Shown: positions 37,250 to 49,516 of the stretch, one piece after another
Layout: every line of letters begins with the position of its first letter
Position numbering within the stretch: position 1 is the first letter of the stretch
Assembly (NCBI GenBank): GCA_016213845.1
Contig: JACQZN010000011.1
Span: forward strand, 1 to 64,000
Direction: 5' to 3'
DNA length: 64,000 nt
From: Candidatus Wallbacteria bacterium
GTDB lineage: Bacteria; Muiribacteriota; UBA6191; JACPRK01
The notes under the pieces: generated by a model
The model's input: only the letters and a program-made list of their open reading frames with translations
Told to the model about the DNA's origin: nothing
Database searches by the model: none
Program-made: the position numbers and the translations under genes

Positions 37250-37557
37250 GCATCCCTCCAGGCGTCCGGTCCGACCAGACGGTCACCGAGTTGCTTAACA
37301 CATCGTCGTCTCAATGGCGAGCCCGGCCTGCCATGGGGCGAAATGCGGGGACACACGACTCATTTTCCGGATCCGCGTGGGCTCTCGGTTCTCCGACGCA
37401 TCAGGAAATGAGTCGTGTGTCCCTCTATTTCGGGCTGGGGCTTGGGCACGATCGGACGCGAGGGGCCTCCCTACGGGACATGCACGCATGCGGGAGGCCC
37501 GCCTTGCCGGGCCGAGGCGCCAATGATACACTGCGCGGGGCGATCGGACGAGGGAAG
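37250..37557. other. Intergenic region holding a palindromic element
   Basis: The 308 bases between the divergent histidine kinase and menG carry the palindromic repeat at 37341-37430 and otherwise no reading frame with support. An inverted GCAT-rich stretch (CATGCACGCATGCGGGAGG) near 37479-37497 is visible but not interpretable. Confidence 0.5.
37341..37430. repeat. Palindromic repeat with GGGGACACACGAC arms, copy 1
   Basis: The left arm at 37341-37368 and the right arm at 37404-37430 are inverted copies with one indel and two mismatches, around a 35-base loop. The core GGGGACACACGAC/GTCGTGTGTCCC is the same as in the copy at 48676-48732. It resembles REP-type palindromes that are moved by RAYT/Y1 transposases, but no such gene is in the window. 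Confidence 0.75.
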
Positions 37558-43122: not shown

Positions 43123-43800
43123 TCAGAATAGCGACTGCTGACCGGGTTCCGTGGCTGGCGGCGGCGCGGCTAGCATCCCCCCCGGCGCCAGCGCGTCGTA
43201 ACGCCGGCGCAGCTCCTTCATCGACTGCCACGTCTGCCACTTGGGGCTGCCGACCGTTCGCTGCTGATTGCGCAATAGGAAGCTGGGATGGTAGAGCGCC
43301 TGGAGCTGGATGCCGTCCTTCCAGTCGAAGAACTGCCCCTGGCAACGAGTGATCCCAGGAGCGGTCTTCCCCAGGAAGAACGATTTGGCGACGTTGCCGA
43401 GCATGCCGATCAGCTTGGGGCGGATGATGCGGATCTGCTCGAGCAGGATCGGACCACACTCGGCCATCTCCTGGTCGGTCGGCGTGCGGTTTCCGGGCGG
43501 CCGGCACTTCACGACATTGGTGATGTAGACGTCACTGCGGGCGAAGCCGACACTCTCCAGGACCTTGTCGAGGAGCTGGCCGGCCGGGCCTACGAACGGC
43601 CGGCCTGAGAGGTCCTCCTGCTCTCCGGGGCCTTCGCCGACGAACATCAGGCGGGCGGCAGGGTTTCCTTCGCCGAAGACGAACTTGGTGCGGGTCCGGC
43701 AGAGCGTGCAGCGCATGGGGCGCTCGCAGGCGGACCGGAGGCCTTCGAGCTGGGCGTTCAGGGCCGCAATCTCTTTCTCAGAAGGGCGAACATCAGGCAT
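43123..43800 (-). CDS. Uracil-DNA glycosylase, family 4 (Fe-S)
   Basis: This enzyme removes uracil from DNA in base-excision repair. The 225-aa protein has GEGPGEQEDLSGRPFVGPAG-type motif A near residue 55 (shown as GEGPGEQEDL and RPFVGPAG) and HPSFLLR as motif B. The four cluster ligands fit Cys31, Cys34, Cys99 and Cys115, including the C-x15-C spacing of family 4. GGGAGGTG precedes the ATG. Its start lies 43 bases inside the 3' end of the proline-rich gene, so it is translationally linked to it. Confidence 0.93.
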   Translation of the reverse strand: MPDVRPSEKEIAALNAQLEGLRSACERPMRCTLCRTRTKFVFGEGNPAARLMFVGEGPGEQEDLSGRPFVGPAGQLLDKVLESVGFARSDVYITNVVKCRPPGNRTPTDQEMAECGPILLEQIRIIRPKLIGMLGNVAKSFFLGKTAPGITRCQGQFFDWKDGIQLQALYHPSFLLRNQQRTVGSPKWQTWQSMKELRRRYDALAPGGMLAAPPPATEPGQQSLF

Positions 43801-45431
43801 GCGAAAACACCTCCCATCACGAGGGGAAGCAACGGACGACCGCGCCGCCGGGCGCCGGGCGCCTGGGGCAGCGCAGGGTGAATCAACGGCGGCGGCTGGG
43901 CCGGTTCCACGAAGGGAGCGGGTGGCGGCACCGGCACGAATGGTACGGACTGAACGGCCGGCGCAACGGGCGGCGGGGCCACAGGAGCCGGAGGCTCCGG
44001 CGGAGGCTTTGGCTCCGTTTTAGGCACGGTGGGCGGCGCGGACGGGGGAGGAACGGGCTCGGGAGAAGGCGGAGGGCGCACCGGCGGCGGCGGAGCTGGC
44101 TCGGGCGGAGGCAGCGGCAGCGGCTCTCGTTCGGAAGCGCTCGGAGACGGGATCGGCGCGGGTGGCACGACGTCGGAAGTGACGCCGAACCGGAGCTCGA
44201 CTTCGCGAAGCCGCTCCCGAGCTTCTGAGAGAGCTGGGTCGGCGCGCAGCGCCCGGGCGAACGCGTGCGCCGCATCCTCCGGTCGTTCCATCGCCAGGTA
44301 CTGCCGGCCTGCCTCGTAAAAGGCCATGGCCTGGCTCGACGAGCGGGCCACGGGCGCCTCGGGAGCGGGTGGCGTCGCATCCGGGGCGGCAGCACCGGAG
44401 GAGCCGCCCTGGAGCGGCGGATCCGGAGCGCGCTCGGCCACACGCGGTGGCGCAGGCGGCAAGGTTGGCGGCGGGGGCTCATGGGCGCGGTCGGGGGTGG
44501 CCGGCGCCACGGGCGGCAGGGCCGGCACTCCAGCCGCCGCCGGCCTTCGAGAACGCCGCGGCGGCCGCTGGGGAACGGGAGCTGCAGCCGCCCCGGGCTC
44601 GCTCGGCGCTGTTTCGGGGGCTGAGCTTGCGGCCGTTCGTAGCGGCCGCCGTCCTGTTCGCTGCGAGCGGCGCCTTGGCGCGGAGGGCGTGTCGGTCGCC
44701 CCTGCCCGCGGGCCCAGCGACTGCGCCAGACTCTCGAGGAGACGCGTCATGGGCTCCGCGGCCCGTCCATCCCCGGAAGCGCGCGCGACCCAGCTGCCGA
44801 CCTGCGCCTCGAACCAGACCCGGCCGGTTCCGCTGTCCGTGCCTGAGAAGACACACGTGCCGATCCGCCAGCGTAGCGGTTTCTCCCTGCGGTGCCGAGC
44901 CTCGAGAGCGAAGCGGGCTCGCCGAGGTGACGCGAAGTAGGCGAGCTCGAGCTCGAGCTCGGGACGATCGCGGGGAGCGGCTGGCTCGGCGGCAGGCTCG
45001 GCGGCCGGTGGGCGGCCGGAGCGCCGGGCCCTGTATCTCTCCAGCAGAGCCTCGATCTTTCCCATTTTTCTCGGCGGCTCCACCGGGTCGTTCGAGTCGG
45101 TTTTCCCCGAGGGCGCCAACTTCAGCGTGAGCCACCGGCGTCCGCTGTCACGCAGGACCGAGACCAGCTCGAACCCCTCGAGGGAGAGCTCGAAGCCGCG
45201 CGCCATGCGGCGCGCCCACGAGTGACTCGAGAGACCCTCCACAGGCAAGGGAGCATCGGGAAAGTCCAGCGGGAAGCGCGACGGGCCGACCGCCGCCAGG
45301 GCTACCGCGGCCAGGGCGGGCAGAAGCGGGAACAGGATTGGCCAGGTGCGTCTCCTGCGGGAAGCCGCAGGCGTCGGGCGAGGGCGCATGAACGGTCCCG
45401 CTCCGACCGCGTAGCGCCTGGGAGCGTTCAC
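43758..45431 (-). CDS. Proline-rich membrane protein with TPR-like segment
   Basis: The 557-aa protein has one membrane helix at about residues 29-49, an Ala/Pro/Arg-rich spacer, a TPR-like pair of helices near residues 362-412 (AFYEAGRQYLAMERPEDAAHAF), a long Pro-rich linker and a second hydrophobic segment near 533-552 followed by RKRLRP. It should span the envelope or expose a long flexible region. The start is a GTG at 45431 that overlaps the upstream stop (GTGA); an ATG 14 codons later is possible. It lies between a cyclic-nucleotide-binding membrane protein and the uracil-DNA glycosylase. The function is unknown. Confidence 0.68.
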   Translation of the reverse strand: MNAPRRYAVGAGPFMRPRPTPAASRRRRTWPILFPLLPALAAVALAAVGPSRFPLDFPDAPLPVEGLSSHSWARRMARGFELSLEGFELVSVLRDSGRRWLTLKLAPSGKTDSNDPVEPPRKMGKIEALLERYRARRSGRPPAAEPAAEPAAPRDRPELELELAYFASPRRARFALEARHRREKPLRWRIGTCVFSGTDSGTGRVWFEAQVGSWVARASGDGRAAEPMTRLLESLAQSLGPRAGATDTPSAPRRRSQRTGRRPLRTAASSAPETAPSEPGAAAAPVPQRPPRRSRRPAAAGVPALPPVAPATPDRAHEPPPPTLPPAPPRVAERAPDPPLQGGSSGAAAPDATPPAPEAPVARSSSQAMAFYEAGRQYLAMERPEDAAHAFARALRADPALSEARERLREVELRFGVTSDVVPPAPIPSPSASEREPLPLPPPEPAPPPPVRPPPSPEPVPPPSAPPTVPKTEPKPPPEPPAPVAPPPVAPAVQSVPFVPVPPPAPFVEPAQPPPLIHPALPQAPGARRRGRPLLPLVMGGVFACLMFALLRKRLRP

Positions 45432-48400
45432 CTCAGCTCCGCCCTGGGGGTGGCCAGGTCCTCGAGCGTCTCGTAGCTGGCGAGATACTCGCGCATGACG
45501 CGCCGGAACTCCTCCCGAGCTAGCGTCAGGACCCGGCTGCGGGCCTCGGCAACGAGCGAAGGGCCCGACTTCACATCCTCCAGCAGCGCCCGCTCGCCGA
45601 AACACTGGCCCGTCGTGAGCGTGTCGAGCCGCTTTCGAGCGCCTTTGTCGGGAGCGTCGAGCACGGCCACGCGCCCGTCCTGAACCAGGTAGAGGCGATC
45701 GATTGGATCGTCGGACTTTAGGAGGACCTTGTTGGCCGGGTGTTGCTCGGCCTCGAGCCGGGCGGCCAGCTTGCCGATCTCGGCGGCAGGCAGGACGCTC
45801 AGCGCCGGGATGGTCCGCAGGAAGCCGCCGTAACGCACCAGCATCTCCAGCAAGCCTGCGATCGATTCGCCCCCCCCCATCAGCCGCTCCAGATCGCCGC
45901 GTCCCAGCGTGTAGAGCTCCACGTCCTCGCAGGCCACAACCGATGCGGCACGCCGCCCGCTGGAGACAAACGCCGATTCGCCGAAGCAATCGCCGGTCAC
46001 CAGATGGCCCAGCGGCTCGGCGTGACCCGACGGGTCCTCTCGCAGCACGGTCAGCTCGCCGCGCGCCACGACGTAGAATCGATCGGCCGGGTCGCCCTGG
46101 CGCACCACACGATCCCCGGCGTGGTAGCGCTCCAGCCTGACGACACGCATCAGCGCGCTGAACTCGGACTCCGCCAGGCGCGAGAAGAACGGCACGCGTG
46201 CGATCTCGTCGAGCCGGTCCGCGGCTGCGACGTCGGAGACGCCGGCCGGAAAGCTCTCGGGCATGTAGTGGCGCAACAGCTCCTGCTCGAACCAGTAGAG
46301 ATCGCCCATGGCCGTGCTGCGCGCCCAGGACGCGAATCGCCGGCCGGCCCGTTCGACGATGGACTCCTCCAGGAGGTCGAGCGTGCGCTTGAGGACGCCG
46401 ATCAGCCAGGCGGCGTCGCGCTCCTCCCATCCAGCGACGTCGAGCTCGCGATTGACGAGCAGGGCCTCGCCCTTGAACTCGCGCTCGGCGAGCCGGTTGA
46501 AAGCGCGCACCATGGCCTCGGCCTTGCGCTCGCCCAGGCCCATGGCATAGAGGGCGACGATGTTGTTGACGAGGACCTGGGCCGCCAGGAGCAGCATCTC
46601 GCGCTGCCCGCTGCCGGCGTTGGCGACCCGCGGAAAGCCGACCGGGCGGCGCCACTGGTGATCTACCCAGAGTCGCGTGGCCACGGCCGCAGCGATGGCC
46701 AGCGGCCATGCGGCAACCTCCCATCGGATGCTGCCGGTCTCGGGCCAGGTCCCGGGCTCGATGGTGAAACCGAACGCGCCTGCTGCGGCAAGCGCCAGCA
46801 GCGAGAGACCCAGGGGGCGCCAGAAGTGGCACGCGGGCGAAGCGGCGTGGATGCAGATGGGCCCGACTGCCGCCAGGGCGACCCCGACTCCCGCGACGAG
46901 ATCGAGGGCATCGAGCAGGCCGAAGACCGAGGGGTTGCGCCAGAGGCCGAAACCCGCGACGGCTAGCAGCACAGGCACGATGCACGTCAGCAGCGCGCTC
47001 TCGAAGCGGGTGGCCGGCACCAGGTTCGCCTCGCGCCGCAGGTGCCAGGCCGCCAAGAGCAAGAGCAGCGAGGAGAGACGCGTGGCGACCCCGATGGCCG
47101 AGGACGACGGCATCCAGGCGGCGAGGAGCCCGGCGTGCGCGGCCGCGCCGGCCGCCCACGTGAGGGAGCGCACGCCGGCGAAGAGCCCCAGCGCGAACAC
47201 GGCGGCGCCGACGGGCGAGCCCTGAAACGTCTTGCGCGCACGCATCAGGGGGAACATGGCGATGAAGCCGGCGATGCCGCAAACCATCCTCGCCATCGCG
47301 GCGTCGCAGAACATCACCAGCCCGAGCGAGAGCATCGCCGCCAGTGGCGTGACCAGCGTGGCCAGGACGCGGCGTCCCAGCGGCCGCACGAAGCAGGAGA
47401 TCGGAATCCAGACGACCAGCGCGAGCGCGTAGAAGAAGGCACCCAGGATGCCGGCGAGCACGCCGGCCAGCGCGACCCGCGAAAGAGCGGGCCCCTCGGC
47501 GAAGAGCTGCCGGGCGGGGCCGGACGAGAGGTCGCCATAGAGGTGGACGCCCAGCTTCAGCGCTAGCAGCGCCCAGACCATGCCGGCGGCTGCATAGAGG
47601 AACAGGGCGCGTTCCTCCTCGGAGAGCTTCTCGCCTCGGAGCTTTCCGGTCCATTTGCGGCTGAAGAGCGCGAACGCCTTGTCGCGAAGGCTTTCGCGAC
47701 CCAAGAGCATCTGGTAGAGCCGGCAGCCATCTGTGTCGTAGATGGGGCTGACGTCCAGGAACAGCATGAGGAGCCCCACGGTGACGAGCTGCGCCAGCAA
47801 CGGCTCCGGCAGCGGGGGCGGGTGCAGCTGCAGCGCCAGCGCCGCGACGCCTGCCATCGAGAGCGGGGCCCAGAGTCCCGCCAGCAGCGCGCCGGCCTGC
47901 GCCGCCCGGCCGGCCAGCAGCATCCCGCTGCGATCGACGAAGAGCGACGGTACGCCGCTCGAGAAGCCCAGGCCCCAGCACGGGATGTCTCGACCGGACA
48001 CCAGGATGGCGCAGCCGACGACCACCTGCCGCCAGGAGACCGCGAACCAGGCGGCCAGCAGGAGCCCCCAGACCGATCCCCCTTTGGGAATCAGGTGAAG
48101 GCCGGGCTCGGCCAGCAGACCCCTGAGGAAAATCAGCCCGCAAAATGGAAGGAAGATCAGAAAGAACCCGACGAAAACCCGGAAGGCTTTGTCGAGCCTC
48201 TCGTGAGCGTCGATGCGGCCGCAGACCAGCCCGCGCCTGCCGGGAACGCCGGGTCCCCAGGCCGCGCCGGTCAGCAGACCCTCGCGGACGAACCTGAGCA
48301 ACGCCTGGCCCACGCGGTCCGGCCCCAGCGGCGGTGAAGCGCGGAGCATCTCGCCGATCAGGTCTTCAACCGTGCGAGTCCCGTCCAGCAGCCTCCAGAT

Positions 48401-48607
48401 GGCAGCCTCGGAGGCCGACAGCTCCAGGTAGCGCCCCTCGTCGGGATGCAGGAGCACGGCGCGACCGTCTCCCGGCGCCGCCAGCTCCTCGACGTCGTCC
48501 CGCCGGCGTGGCCGCCGTTCCAGCAGCGGCTGCGAACCCACCGTGTGCGGACGCCGAACCGCGGCTTCCGCCGGCTCGGCTGCGACCTGTTCCGCTTCGT
48601 CTTCCAT
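45428..48607 (-). CDS. PqqD + inactive M50-like membrane protein with two cyclic-nucleotide-binding domains
   Basis: The 1059-aa protein (counted from the ATG at 48607; another in-frame ATG at 48664 adds 19 residues; neither has a clear ribosome binding site) begins with a PqqD/RRE-like domain at about 45-115 (VLLHPDEGRYLELSASEAAIW, then LLDGTRTVEDLI). About 12 membrane helices follow. The first ones match YydH-type M50 proteins (SGRDIPCWGLGF, and DTDGCRLYQMLLG as in the NPxxxxDG segment), but the HELGH position reads RQVVV at 193-197, so no zinc site can form. Two CNB domains lie at about 800-911 and 926-1046. The first has a full phosphate-binding cassette (CFGESAFVSSGRRAAS); the second lacks its Arg. 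The upstream boundary is a 27-bp perfect palindrome. Confidence 0.8.
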   Translation of the reverse strand: MEDEAEQVAAEPAEAAVRRPHTVGSQPLLERRPRRRDDVEELAAPGDGRAVLLHPDEGRYLELSASEAAIWRLLDGTRTVEDLIGEMLRASPPLGPDRVGQALLRFVREGLLTGAAWGPGVPGRRGLVCGRIDAHERLDKAFRVFVGFFLIFLPFCGLIFLRGLLAEPGLHLIPKGGSVWGLLLAAWFAVSWRQVVVGCAILVSGRDIPCWGLGFSSGVPSLFVDRSGMLLAGRAAQAGALLAGLWAPLSMAGVAALALQLHPPPLPEPLLAQLVTVGLLMLFLDVSPIYDTDGCRLYQMLLGRESLRDKAFALFSRKWTGKLRGEKLSEEERALFLYAAAGMVWALLALKLGVHLYGDLSSGPARQLFAEGPALSRVALAGVLAGILGAFFYALALVVWIPISCFVRPLGRRVLATLVTPLAAMLSLGLVMFCDAAMARMVCGIAGFIAMFPLMRARKTFQGSPVGAAVFALGLFAGVRSLTWAAGAAAHAGLLAAWMPSSSAIGVATRLSSLLLLLAAWHLRREANLVPATRFESALLTCIVPVLLAVAGFGLWRNPSVFGLLDALDLVAGVGVALAAVGPICIHAASPACHFWRPLGLSLLALAAAGAFGFTIEPGTWPETGSIRWEVAAWPLAIAAAVATRLWVDHQWRRPVGFPRVANAGSGQREMLLLAAQVLVNNIVALYAMGLGERKAEAMVRAFNRLAEREFKGEALLVNRELDVAGWEERDAAWLIGVLKRTLDLLEESIVERAGRRFASWARSTAMGDLYWFEQELLRHYMPESFPAGVSDVAAADRLDEIARVPFFSRLAESEFSALMRVVRLERYHAGDRVVRQGDPADRFYVVARGELTVLREDPSGHAEPLGHLVTGDCFGESAFVSSGRRAASVVACEDVELYTLGRGDLERLMGGGESIAGLLEMLVRYGGFLRTIPALSVLPAAEIGKLAARLEAEQHPANKVLLKSDDPIDRLYLVQDGRVAVLDAPDKGARKRLDTLTTGQCFGERALLEDVKSGPSLVAEARSRVLTLAREEFRRVMREYLASYETLEDLATPRAELR

Positions 48608-48675
48608 GGGTTGCCCCGGCACCGTCCGGAGAAGCTCCGAGTATACGCCAGCCCCCCAGCCCATTCAATGTAAGG

Positions 48676-48732
48676 AAAAACTGGGGACACACGACCTATT
48701 TCTGCGAAATAGGTCGTGTGTCCCCAGTTTTT
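48676..48732. repeat. Perfect palindromic repeat with GGGGACACACGAC arms, copy 2
   Basis: Two perfect 27-base inverted arms (48676-48702 and 48706-48732) surround a TGC loop. The right arm ends in a run of T, so the element could also terminate transcription on both strands. The core is the same as in the element at 37341-37430. It sits between two divergent genes. Confidence 0.85.
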
Positions 48733-48751
48733 TTTCTATGCTGCGGGCGAG

Positions 48752-49516
48752 ATGCCGCCCCTCGTGCTGGCTGCGGGAGTCTTCGCGACGGCGTATGCTG
48801 CCGCGGCGGCGACGCGATGGCTGCCGGCGGACGTGAGCGTTTCCTGGTGCCGCCTGGTGAGCGGGTGGCTCTGCATCGGGGCGGGAGTCACGTTTGTCGG
48901 CATCGGGCGGCGGCAGCGGGTCGAGCCTGCGACGATCCCGATGGCCGTATTGGCCGCGGCAGCGCTTCTCTGGGGGATGGGCCGGCTGGGGCTGGACTCG
49001 ACGCCTGCGCTGCTGCTCAGGGACCTGGCCCAGCTTTCGGCGGCAACCCTGCTTGGCGCGTTTCTCGCCGGCCACATTTCCAGCGGCGAAATCCTCCTGG
49101 CCCTCGGGATCGTCGTGACGGTGACCGACCTCTGGAGCGTTCACGGCGGCGTGACGCGGACGCTGATCGAGGCGAAGGTCGTCGACCACTTCCTGGTCAA
49201 CTTCCCGGTCTTGCTGCAGCCCGAGGTCGGCTTCTTCATCGGCACGTCCGATTTCGTGATGGCCTCGCTCTACATCACGTGCTCCGAGCGGCTCGAGCGG
49301 GCCTGGTGGCGTGCCCCGGCCGCCATCGCCGCCGGGATGATCGCCGCCGGGACGCTCGCGATCACGCTCCGGATTCCGCTGCCGGTGCTTCCCTTCATGG
49401 TGGTCACCTACCACCTGGCCTTCCCGCGCGACTACACCCTGGGCCGGGAGGGGCTCAAGCTGCTGGCGGCGGGACTGGGGCTCGTGGGCGCGCTCGCCCT
49501 GCTCTATCGCCCCTGA
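48752..49516 (+). CDS. Presenilin-like (A22-type) nine-helix membrane protein
   Basis: The 254-aa protein is almost entirely hydrophobic, with eight to nine helices. Three marks of presenilin/signal-peptide-peptidase-type proteases are seen in order: Asp126 in TVTDLWSVHGG, Asp167 in FFIGTSDFVMASLY (the position of the GxGD motif, here GTSD), and LPVLPF at 210-215 (where archaeal homologues have the PAL-type LPALPF). Spacing between the two Asp (41 residues) is short but possible. I infer an intramembrane aspartyl protease homologue; whether it is active is open because the GxGD glycine is Ser. It has no close partner: the genes on both sides are divergent or convergent. The ATG at 48752 has only a weak site. 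A generic integral membrane protein is the alternative. Confidence 0.55.
   Translation: MPPLVLAAGVFATAYAAAAATRWLPADVSVSWCRLVSGWLCIGAGVTFVGIGRRQRVEPATIPMAVLAAAALLWGMGRLGLDSTPALLLRDLAQLSAATLLGAFLAGHISSGEILLALGIVVTVTDLWSVHGGVTRTLIEAKVVDHFLVNFPVLLQPEVGFFIGTSDFVMASLYITCSERLERAWWRAPAAIAAGMIAAGTLAITLRIPLPVLPFMVVTYHLAFPRDYTLGREGLKLLAAGLGLVGALALLYRP

Follow-up and report, generated by a model that had tools for sequence, protein, structure and literature searches.

A predicted M50-type pseudoprotease fused to PqqD and tandem cyclic nucleotide-binding domains in Candidatus Wallbacteria

Organization of the locus

The window, which is the whole stretch of 64,000 nucleotides analyzed here, comes from a MAG of Candidatus Wallbacteria. 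The gene of interest, called the window gene below, is a minus-strand ORF at 45428-48664 that encodes a protein of 1078 residues. The start at 48607 given in a preliminary description of this DNA is an in-frame ATG at residue 20, and this codon may be the true start. The same description had assigned a PqqD domain, an M50-like core, and two CNB domains to the protein, and this set was confirmed by Pfam, NCBIfam, and profile comparison. The features are listed below, where "active" and "dead" denote proteins with and without HExxH, respectively.

45428..48664, minus: protein of 1078 aa with the order PqqD, predicted dead M50, membrane extension, CNB, CNB; orthologs L009 and L010; dN/dS 0.16 vs L010
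48284..48460, minus: PqqD/RRE-like domain, residues 69-127 (PF05402, E 4.3e-8, 33.8 bits vs cut-off 23.4)
47630..48217, minus: M50-like membrane core, residues ~150-345 (hhalign vs HExxH-bearing PqqD-M50 profile; NF041824, E 1.1e-11)
48017..48031, minus: RQVVV, residues 212-216, HELAH in active relatives (alignments)
47927..47956, minus: GVPSLFVDRS, residues 237-246, kept counterpart of G.PaaFVDtSD in active relatives (alignments)
47720..47734, minus: TDGCR, residues 311-315, counterpart of the third-ligand LDGY motif (alignments)
46541..47629, minus: membrane extension, residues 346-708, ~10 predicted TM segments (hydropathy, alignments)
46220..46540, minus: helical linker preceding the CNB pair, residues 709-815, LYWFE at 789 (LYW.E conservation)
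45878..46132, minus: CNB1, residues 845-929, intact phosphate cassette (PF00027; dN/dS 0.057)
45497..45787, minus: CNB2, residues ~960-1056, cassette Arg lost (second PF00027 stretch; cassette listing)
43758..45431, minus: TPR/proline-rich protein gene, ~557 aa (sequence; weak TPR matches in Pfam)
48677..48731, no strand: near-perfect inverted repeat in the divergent gap upstream of the window gene (sequence)

This domain order holds over the full length of the window protein when it is aligned and placed in a tree with relatives of both kinds, active and dead. The PqqD domain exceeds the Pfam gathering score only in the window ortholog group, and neither the paralogs L041 and L042 nor the relative L043 gives a match. 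The membrane extension following the core is also present in the active relatives in the alignments, and LYW.E of the linker is conserved in the paralogs and most active relatives. Hydropathy predicts approximately 14 TM segments in total.

The GTG start codon of the downstream TPR/proline-rich gene overlaps the TGA of the window gene by 4 bases (GTGA), and the encoded protein has hydrophobic stretches near both ends. A gene of this kind is also located directly downstream in L009 and L010. The annotated neighbors at 35-60 kb encode UbiE, pentapeptide repeats, spermine synthase, UDG, a Ser/Thr kinase, TsaD, MutL, MiaA, GT2, and PKD proteins. The inverted repeat at 48677-48731 (GGGGACACACGACCTATTTC) shares GACACACGAC..ATTT with another at 37350-37421, and both are possibly REP-like/REP-type or terminator elements. 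The divergent gene at 48716-49516 (plus strand) encodes a membrane protein of 266 aa, in which TVTD, GTSD, and PVLP recall presenilin motifs. A presenilin-like identity was dropped, since Pfam gave nothing below E 10 and the PDB nothing better than E 0.4.

M50-like core and loss of the zinc site

The residues in the position of the zinc-binding motif should be noted. In a profile-profile alignment (302 columns, E 1.1e-7), R212-Q-V-V-V falls exactly under the HELAH of HExxH-bearing PqqD-M50 proteins, which were taken from other genomes of the same class and order. No HExxH was found anywhere in the window protein, the sole HE being that of HERLD at 154. These observations bear out the loss of HExxH claimed in the preliminary description. 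The Asp of the third zinc ligand is retained in TDGCR of the window protein and in the corresponding motif of L042, whereas L041 and L043 have lost it. Several dead copies also retain the G(V/L)P..(F/Y)VD and DG motifs of the core.

The Pfam M50 model does not match the core. The best NCBIfam match is the daptide M50 model NF041824, which covers residues 1-425 with a score of 44.5 bits against a cut-off of 300. Together with the profile-profile alignment, this match agrees with the claimed similarity of the membrane part to M50 and with the claimed relation to PqqD-M50 (YydH-type) proteins. No solved structure related to the core was found by profile search, and no PDZ domain was found in the window protein. 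The fold assignment of the core relies on sequence profiles, because the AlphaFold model of residues 54-438, built with two close orthologs, has a pLDDT of 40. On sequence grounds, the window protein is predicted to be a pseudoprotease, a catalytically dead representative of the family of CNB-fused PqqD-M50 membrane proteins. This is indicated by its homology to active PqqD-M50 proteins, by the H, E, and H having been lost from every dead copy, and by the retained M50 frame and CNB pair.

CNB domains

cNMP_binding (PF00027) matches the window protein in two stretches with E 2.5e-38. The phosphate cassette of CNB1, FGESAFVSSGRRAASV, contains both Glu and Arg (FGESAFVSSGRRAAS), and that of CNB2, FGERALLEDVKSGPSLV, is without Arg (FGERALLEDVKSGPS), as the preliminary description had noted. 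The CNB2 cassettes are degenerate in every copy examined from Wallbacteria family f1. In the sequence profile comparison, the tandem CNB domains best match PKA/PKG regulatory domains, followed by channels such as SthK. Class III cyclase matches are found at 21 places in the window genome, so that cyclic-nucleotide ligands may be expected. The resemblance to PKA/PKG tandems and the presence of cyclases make cyclic-nucleotide control plausible.

Distribution of the family

Orthologs of the window gene are found in two other MAGs titled Candidatus Wallbacteria, with identities of 97% (L009) and 77% (L010). The window genome (G000) contains two more full-length dead paralogs, which are approximately 30% identical to the window protein. 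Further relatives, none of them with HExxH, come from the same genus and from another family within the order. One ortholog of the paralog L041 (G030:C386, L148:4968-7987) is split into two ORFs by a sequencing error or a recent disruption. The search of the phylum gave no active PqqD-M50-CNB copy. In G000, a MAG 84% complete, the search for this type of M50 protein gave no active relative that passed the E-value limit.

PqqD-M50-CNB-CNB proteins were also found outside the phylum among genomes sampled across the domain. HExxH is kept in 14 sampled proteins of ~1000-1140 aa (6 in the first genome sample, 14 in all after the second), among them one from each of the 10 genomes sampled from family f137. 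Dead relatives exist outside the phylum as well. The order CNB-CNB-PqqD-M50 is seen in two proteins; a protein of this order (L108:7328-9025, G307) has QELGH for HExxH and ends early in the core, and is possibly frameshifted.

A plasmid search by protein gave CNB matches alone. Other long CNB proteins of the window genome proved to be unrelated to the family; they are of the TLC transporter-HEAT-CNB and metallo-beta-lactamase-CNB types. L048:406-5274 in this genome combines a TLC-type ATP/ADP transporter, HEAT repeats, and a CNB domain, and L049, L050, and L054 have a metallo-beta-lactamase fold followed by a pair of CNB domains at the C-terminus. Fusions to CNB domains occur commonly in these genomes.

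The preliminary description knew of no described system with this set of domains. We likewise found no paper on the combination, or on any M50-CNB fusion, in the openly licensed literature, and the CNB-fused PqqD-M50 family is apparently undescribed. The set is not unique to the window protein, however, since it recurs outside the phylum with and without the catalytic site.

Phylogeny and selection

In the tree of the PqqD-M50 part, a branch with support of 97/97 separates the CNB-fused proteins from the HlyD-type ones. In the full-length tree, the active proteins included form one side of a 99/99 branch, which is recovered in 100% of bootstraps, and the dead proteins are all on the opposite side, though the long branches among the latter call for caution. 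A single change between the two states suffices on this tree, and we infer from the active HlyD-type relatives that its direction was from active to dead. The Wallbacteria copies group together with support of 97/93 when G031 is included and 100/100 when it is omitted.

In comparison with the 77% identical ortholog L010, dN/dS (NG86) is 0.16 overall, at a dS near 1. CNB1 gives the lowest value (0.057), the M50 core gives 0.21, and the 29 codons around the former catalytic helix give 0.34. The window protein is maintained by purifying selection, and its nucleotide site is the most constrained segment.

The possibility that the gene is a decaying pseudogene or a MAG artefact should be considered here, since the window MAG is 84% complete and the split ortholog in G030 exists. 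This possibility is hardly credible. There are three full-length paralogs in the window genome, orthologs in other MAGs, and dead relatives outside the phylum, and the dN/dS of 0.16 refutes it unless the alignments are wrong.

GspG-like gene adjoining dead members

Dead CNB genes mostly share an operon with a small GspG-like gene. This gene lies directly downstream of a dead CNB gene in 22 loci from 7 genera, all 22 CNB proteins being without HExxH. Its first start codon overlaps or abuts the CNB stop codon by 1 to 16 bases in 20 of the loci; in the other two, it follows the stop codon at a distance of 15 or 18 bases. The gene also follows dead relatives outside the phylum. Among 386 genomes sampled around G132, all 17 strong matches to the partner adjoin a dead CNB gene. 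In 17 chosen genomes, six with active copies have no such gene. Counted by genus, 7 of 11 dead genera have the GspG-like gene, against 0 of 7 active ones (Fisher p 0.013; the sample is small, the test is post hoc, and the genera are related).

The encoded partner has one N-terminal hydrophobic/TM segment by hydropathy and shares the D.W...Y and S.G.D....DD motifs with GspG. The profile of the partner also retrieves true GspG proteins (T2SSG, E 7.6e-33), and the kinship to GspG rests on these motifs and this retrieval. The GFTLIE prepilin motif is absent, no T2SSG match is above the cut-off, and profile searches gave no match among solved structures and GspG at only E 0.089 in NCBIfam. The partner is probably a small single-pass membrane-anchored protein resembling GspG, with its topology predicted from hydropathy.

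In the window genome, the GspG-like gene adjoins two of the three paralogs, the two partners being 29% identical (E 2e-16), and is absent directly downstream of the window gene. A third GspG-like gene (G000:C75, L157:7132-7536) is not beside a CNB gene; this copy and its counterpart in G029 are the two unlinked copies among 17 chosen genomes. The window genome thus holds three dead paralogs and three GspG-like genes, and the C75 copy might serve as the partner of the window copy. The AU test rejects the grouping of all partner-linked dead genes in one clade (p 3.8e-5), as the window group, which is unlinked, nests inside the Wallbacteria branch. In the simplest reading, the linkage was lost in the window group.

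A zinc-finger gene with a product of ~70 aa, giving weak C5HCH/DUF2180 matches, is found next to or within ~2 kb of several active loci and the dead L043. The window copy has neither a GspG-like nor such a zinc-finger neighbor. The zinc-finger genes are as follows.

L107:9234-9434: ~70 aa zinc-finger gene
L109:4437-4649: ~70 aa zinc-finger gene
L110:3675-3902: ~70 aa zinc-finger gene
L123:5325-5534: ~70 aa zinc-finger gene
L153:2246-2524: ~70 aa zinc-finger gene
L043:6402-6599: ~70 aa zinc-finger gene

Comparison with known proteins

Proteins with PqqD-M50-HlyD order, annotated as "putative peptide zinc metalloprotease" (YydH type; L061-L064, L069, L112, L114, and L115), share the N-terminal PqqD-like domain and the M50-type core with the window protein. 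They keep HExxH and LDG/LDS, and have an HlyD-like C-terminus and no CNB, whereas the window protein ends in the CNB pair. RseP-type bacterial site-2 proteases have the M50 ancestry of the membrane core in common with it. Unlike them, the window protein is without HExxH or a detected PDZ domain and has the added PqqD and CNB domains. The daptide biosynthesis protease of NF041824 is the nearest NCBIfam model to the core, but the score is far below the cut-off as described above, and no daptide genes are seen near the window gene. CNB domains are also joined to peptide-handling membrane proteins in the TIGR03896 bacteriocin-type transport-associated protein and in cyanobacterial CNB-bearing peptidase-ABC exporters, although the match to these is limited to the CNB part. 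As for the partner of the sister loci, it differs from GspG, the major pseudopilin of type II secretion, in being coupled to a CNB gene as well as in the missing prepilin motif.

Among inactive intramembrane proteases of known role, those of the animal rhomboids are the best studied. The iRhoms have an intramembrane protease fold that has lost its catalytic residues and is under selection, and they act directly on rhomboid clients without proteolysis (PMC3149277). The analogy is functional, since iRhoms belong to an unrelated serine-protease family in animals and have no PqqD or CNB domains. No paper describing an inactive M50 intramembrane protease in bacteria was found in the openly licensed literature.

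Possible function

The best explanation is a pseudoprotease gated by cyclic nucleotides, to which a single-pass membrane client would bind without being cut, and we give this explanation slightly less than an even chance. Clients of site-2 proteases are generally single-spanning type II proteins (PMC8144685), and the single N-terminal TM segment of the GspG-like partner fits this class. A dead core kept beside a single-pass protein suggests, with iRhoms as the analogy, that the client is held and not cut. The M50-like core would still bind the TM helix of a single-pass (type II) client, which would be held intact, and the PqqD domain may help to recognize the client or a partner. A cyclic nucleotide on CNB1 might switch binding, or relay signals between the client domain outside and the cytoplasm. 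The most likely client in the case of the window copy would be the downstream TPR protein, or else the product of the unlinked third GspG-like gene on C75. Operon linkage to the GspG-like gene does not prove binding. Binding without cleavage, controlled by nucleotides, had already been put forward in the preliminary description and is judged to be right as an idea, with client binding and gating as its conjectural parts.

That description had also proposed a role in RiPP systems, in which the PqqD domain binds a ribosomal precursor peptide that is moved through or across the membrane under cyclic-nucleotide control. The PqqD domain above the cut-off, the daptide protease and ScmD as the nearest curated models, and YydH, which is thought to process the epipeptide YydF (PMC7026026), are consistent with such a role. 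However, neither RiPP enzymes nor an exporter nor a precursor was found among the 10 annotated neighbors of the window gene in a Pfam scan, and no cluster of the three was recognized around the paralogs and relatives, for which the gene lists of a simple ORF caller were inspected visually. The active relatives instead adjoin nadD, gatCAB, or the small zinc-finger gene. The proposal is not supported by these results, and we regard it as improbable.

Nucleotide gating of a different kind is conceivable if the M50 relic and the membrane extension form a cyclic-nucleotide-gated transporter or anchor, with the PqqD domain and the M50 groove binding nothing. The ~14 predicted TM segments, the CNB match to channels after PKA/PKG, and the divergence of PqqD in the paralogs point in this direction. 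Against it, the G(V/L)P..(F/Y)VD and DG motifs are kept in several dead copies, and no channel or transporter family in Pfam or NCBIfam matches the window protein; we consider a scaffold or channel unlikely, though worth bearing in mind. The dead protein might also be a regulatory decoy, either protecting single-pass substrates against active M50 proteases or joining these proteases in inactive hetero-oligomers. The direct action of iRhoms on their clients sets an example (PMC3149277), and the order (G031) and class of the window genome include active PqqD-M50-HlyD proteins. The lack of an active PqqD-M50-CNB copy in the phylum searches and of an active relative in G000, within the limits given above, makes this alternative rather unlikely, and the fixed operon partner argues for a dedicated client.

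Under the preferred explanation of a nucleotide-gated pseudoprotease, a wider picture is possible, which we hold only tentatively. The dead members may represent an old bacterial branch of cyclic-nucleotide-sensing intramembrane pseudoproteases, under selection inside and outside the phylum and holding a pilin-like client uncut, that is, an M50-fold counterpart of iRhoms regulated by cAMP or cGMP. The family unites an active and a dead branch under a single architecture, and the dead members have a coupled candidate client next to them, so that the loss of catalysis, the binding of clients, and control by second messengers are all open to testing in a single system. If true, this picture would further suggest that intramembrane proteolysis by the active branch is controlled by cyclic nucleotides.
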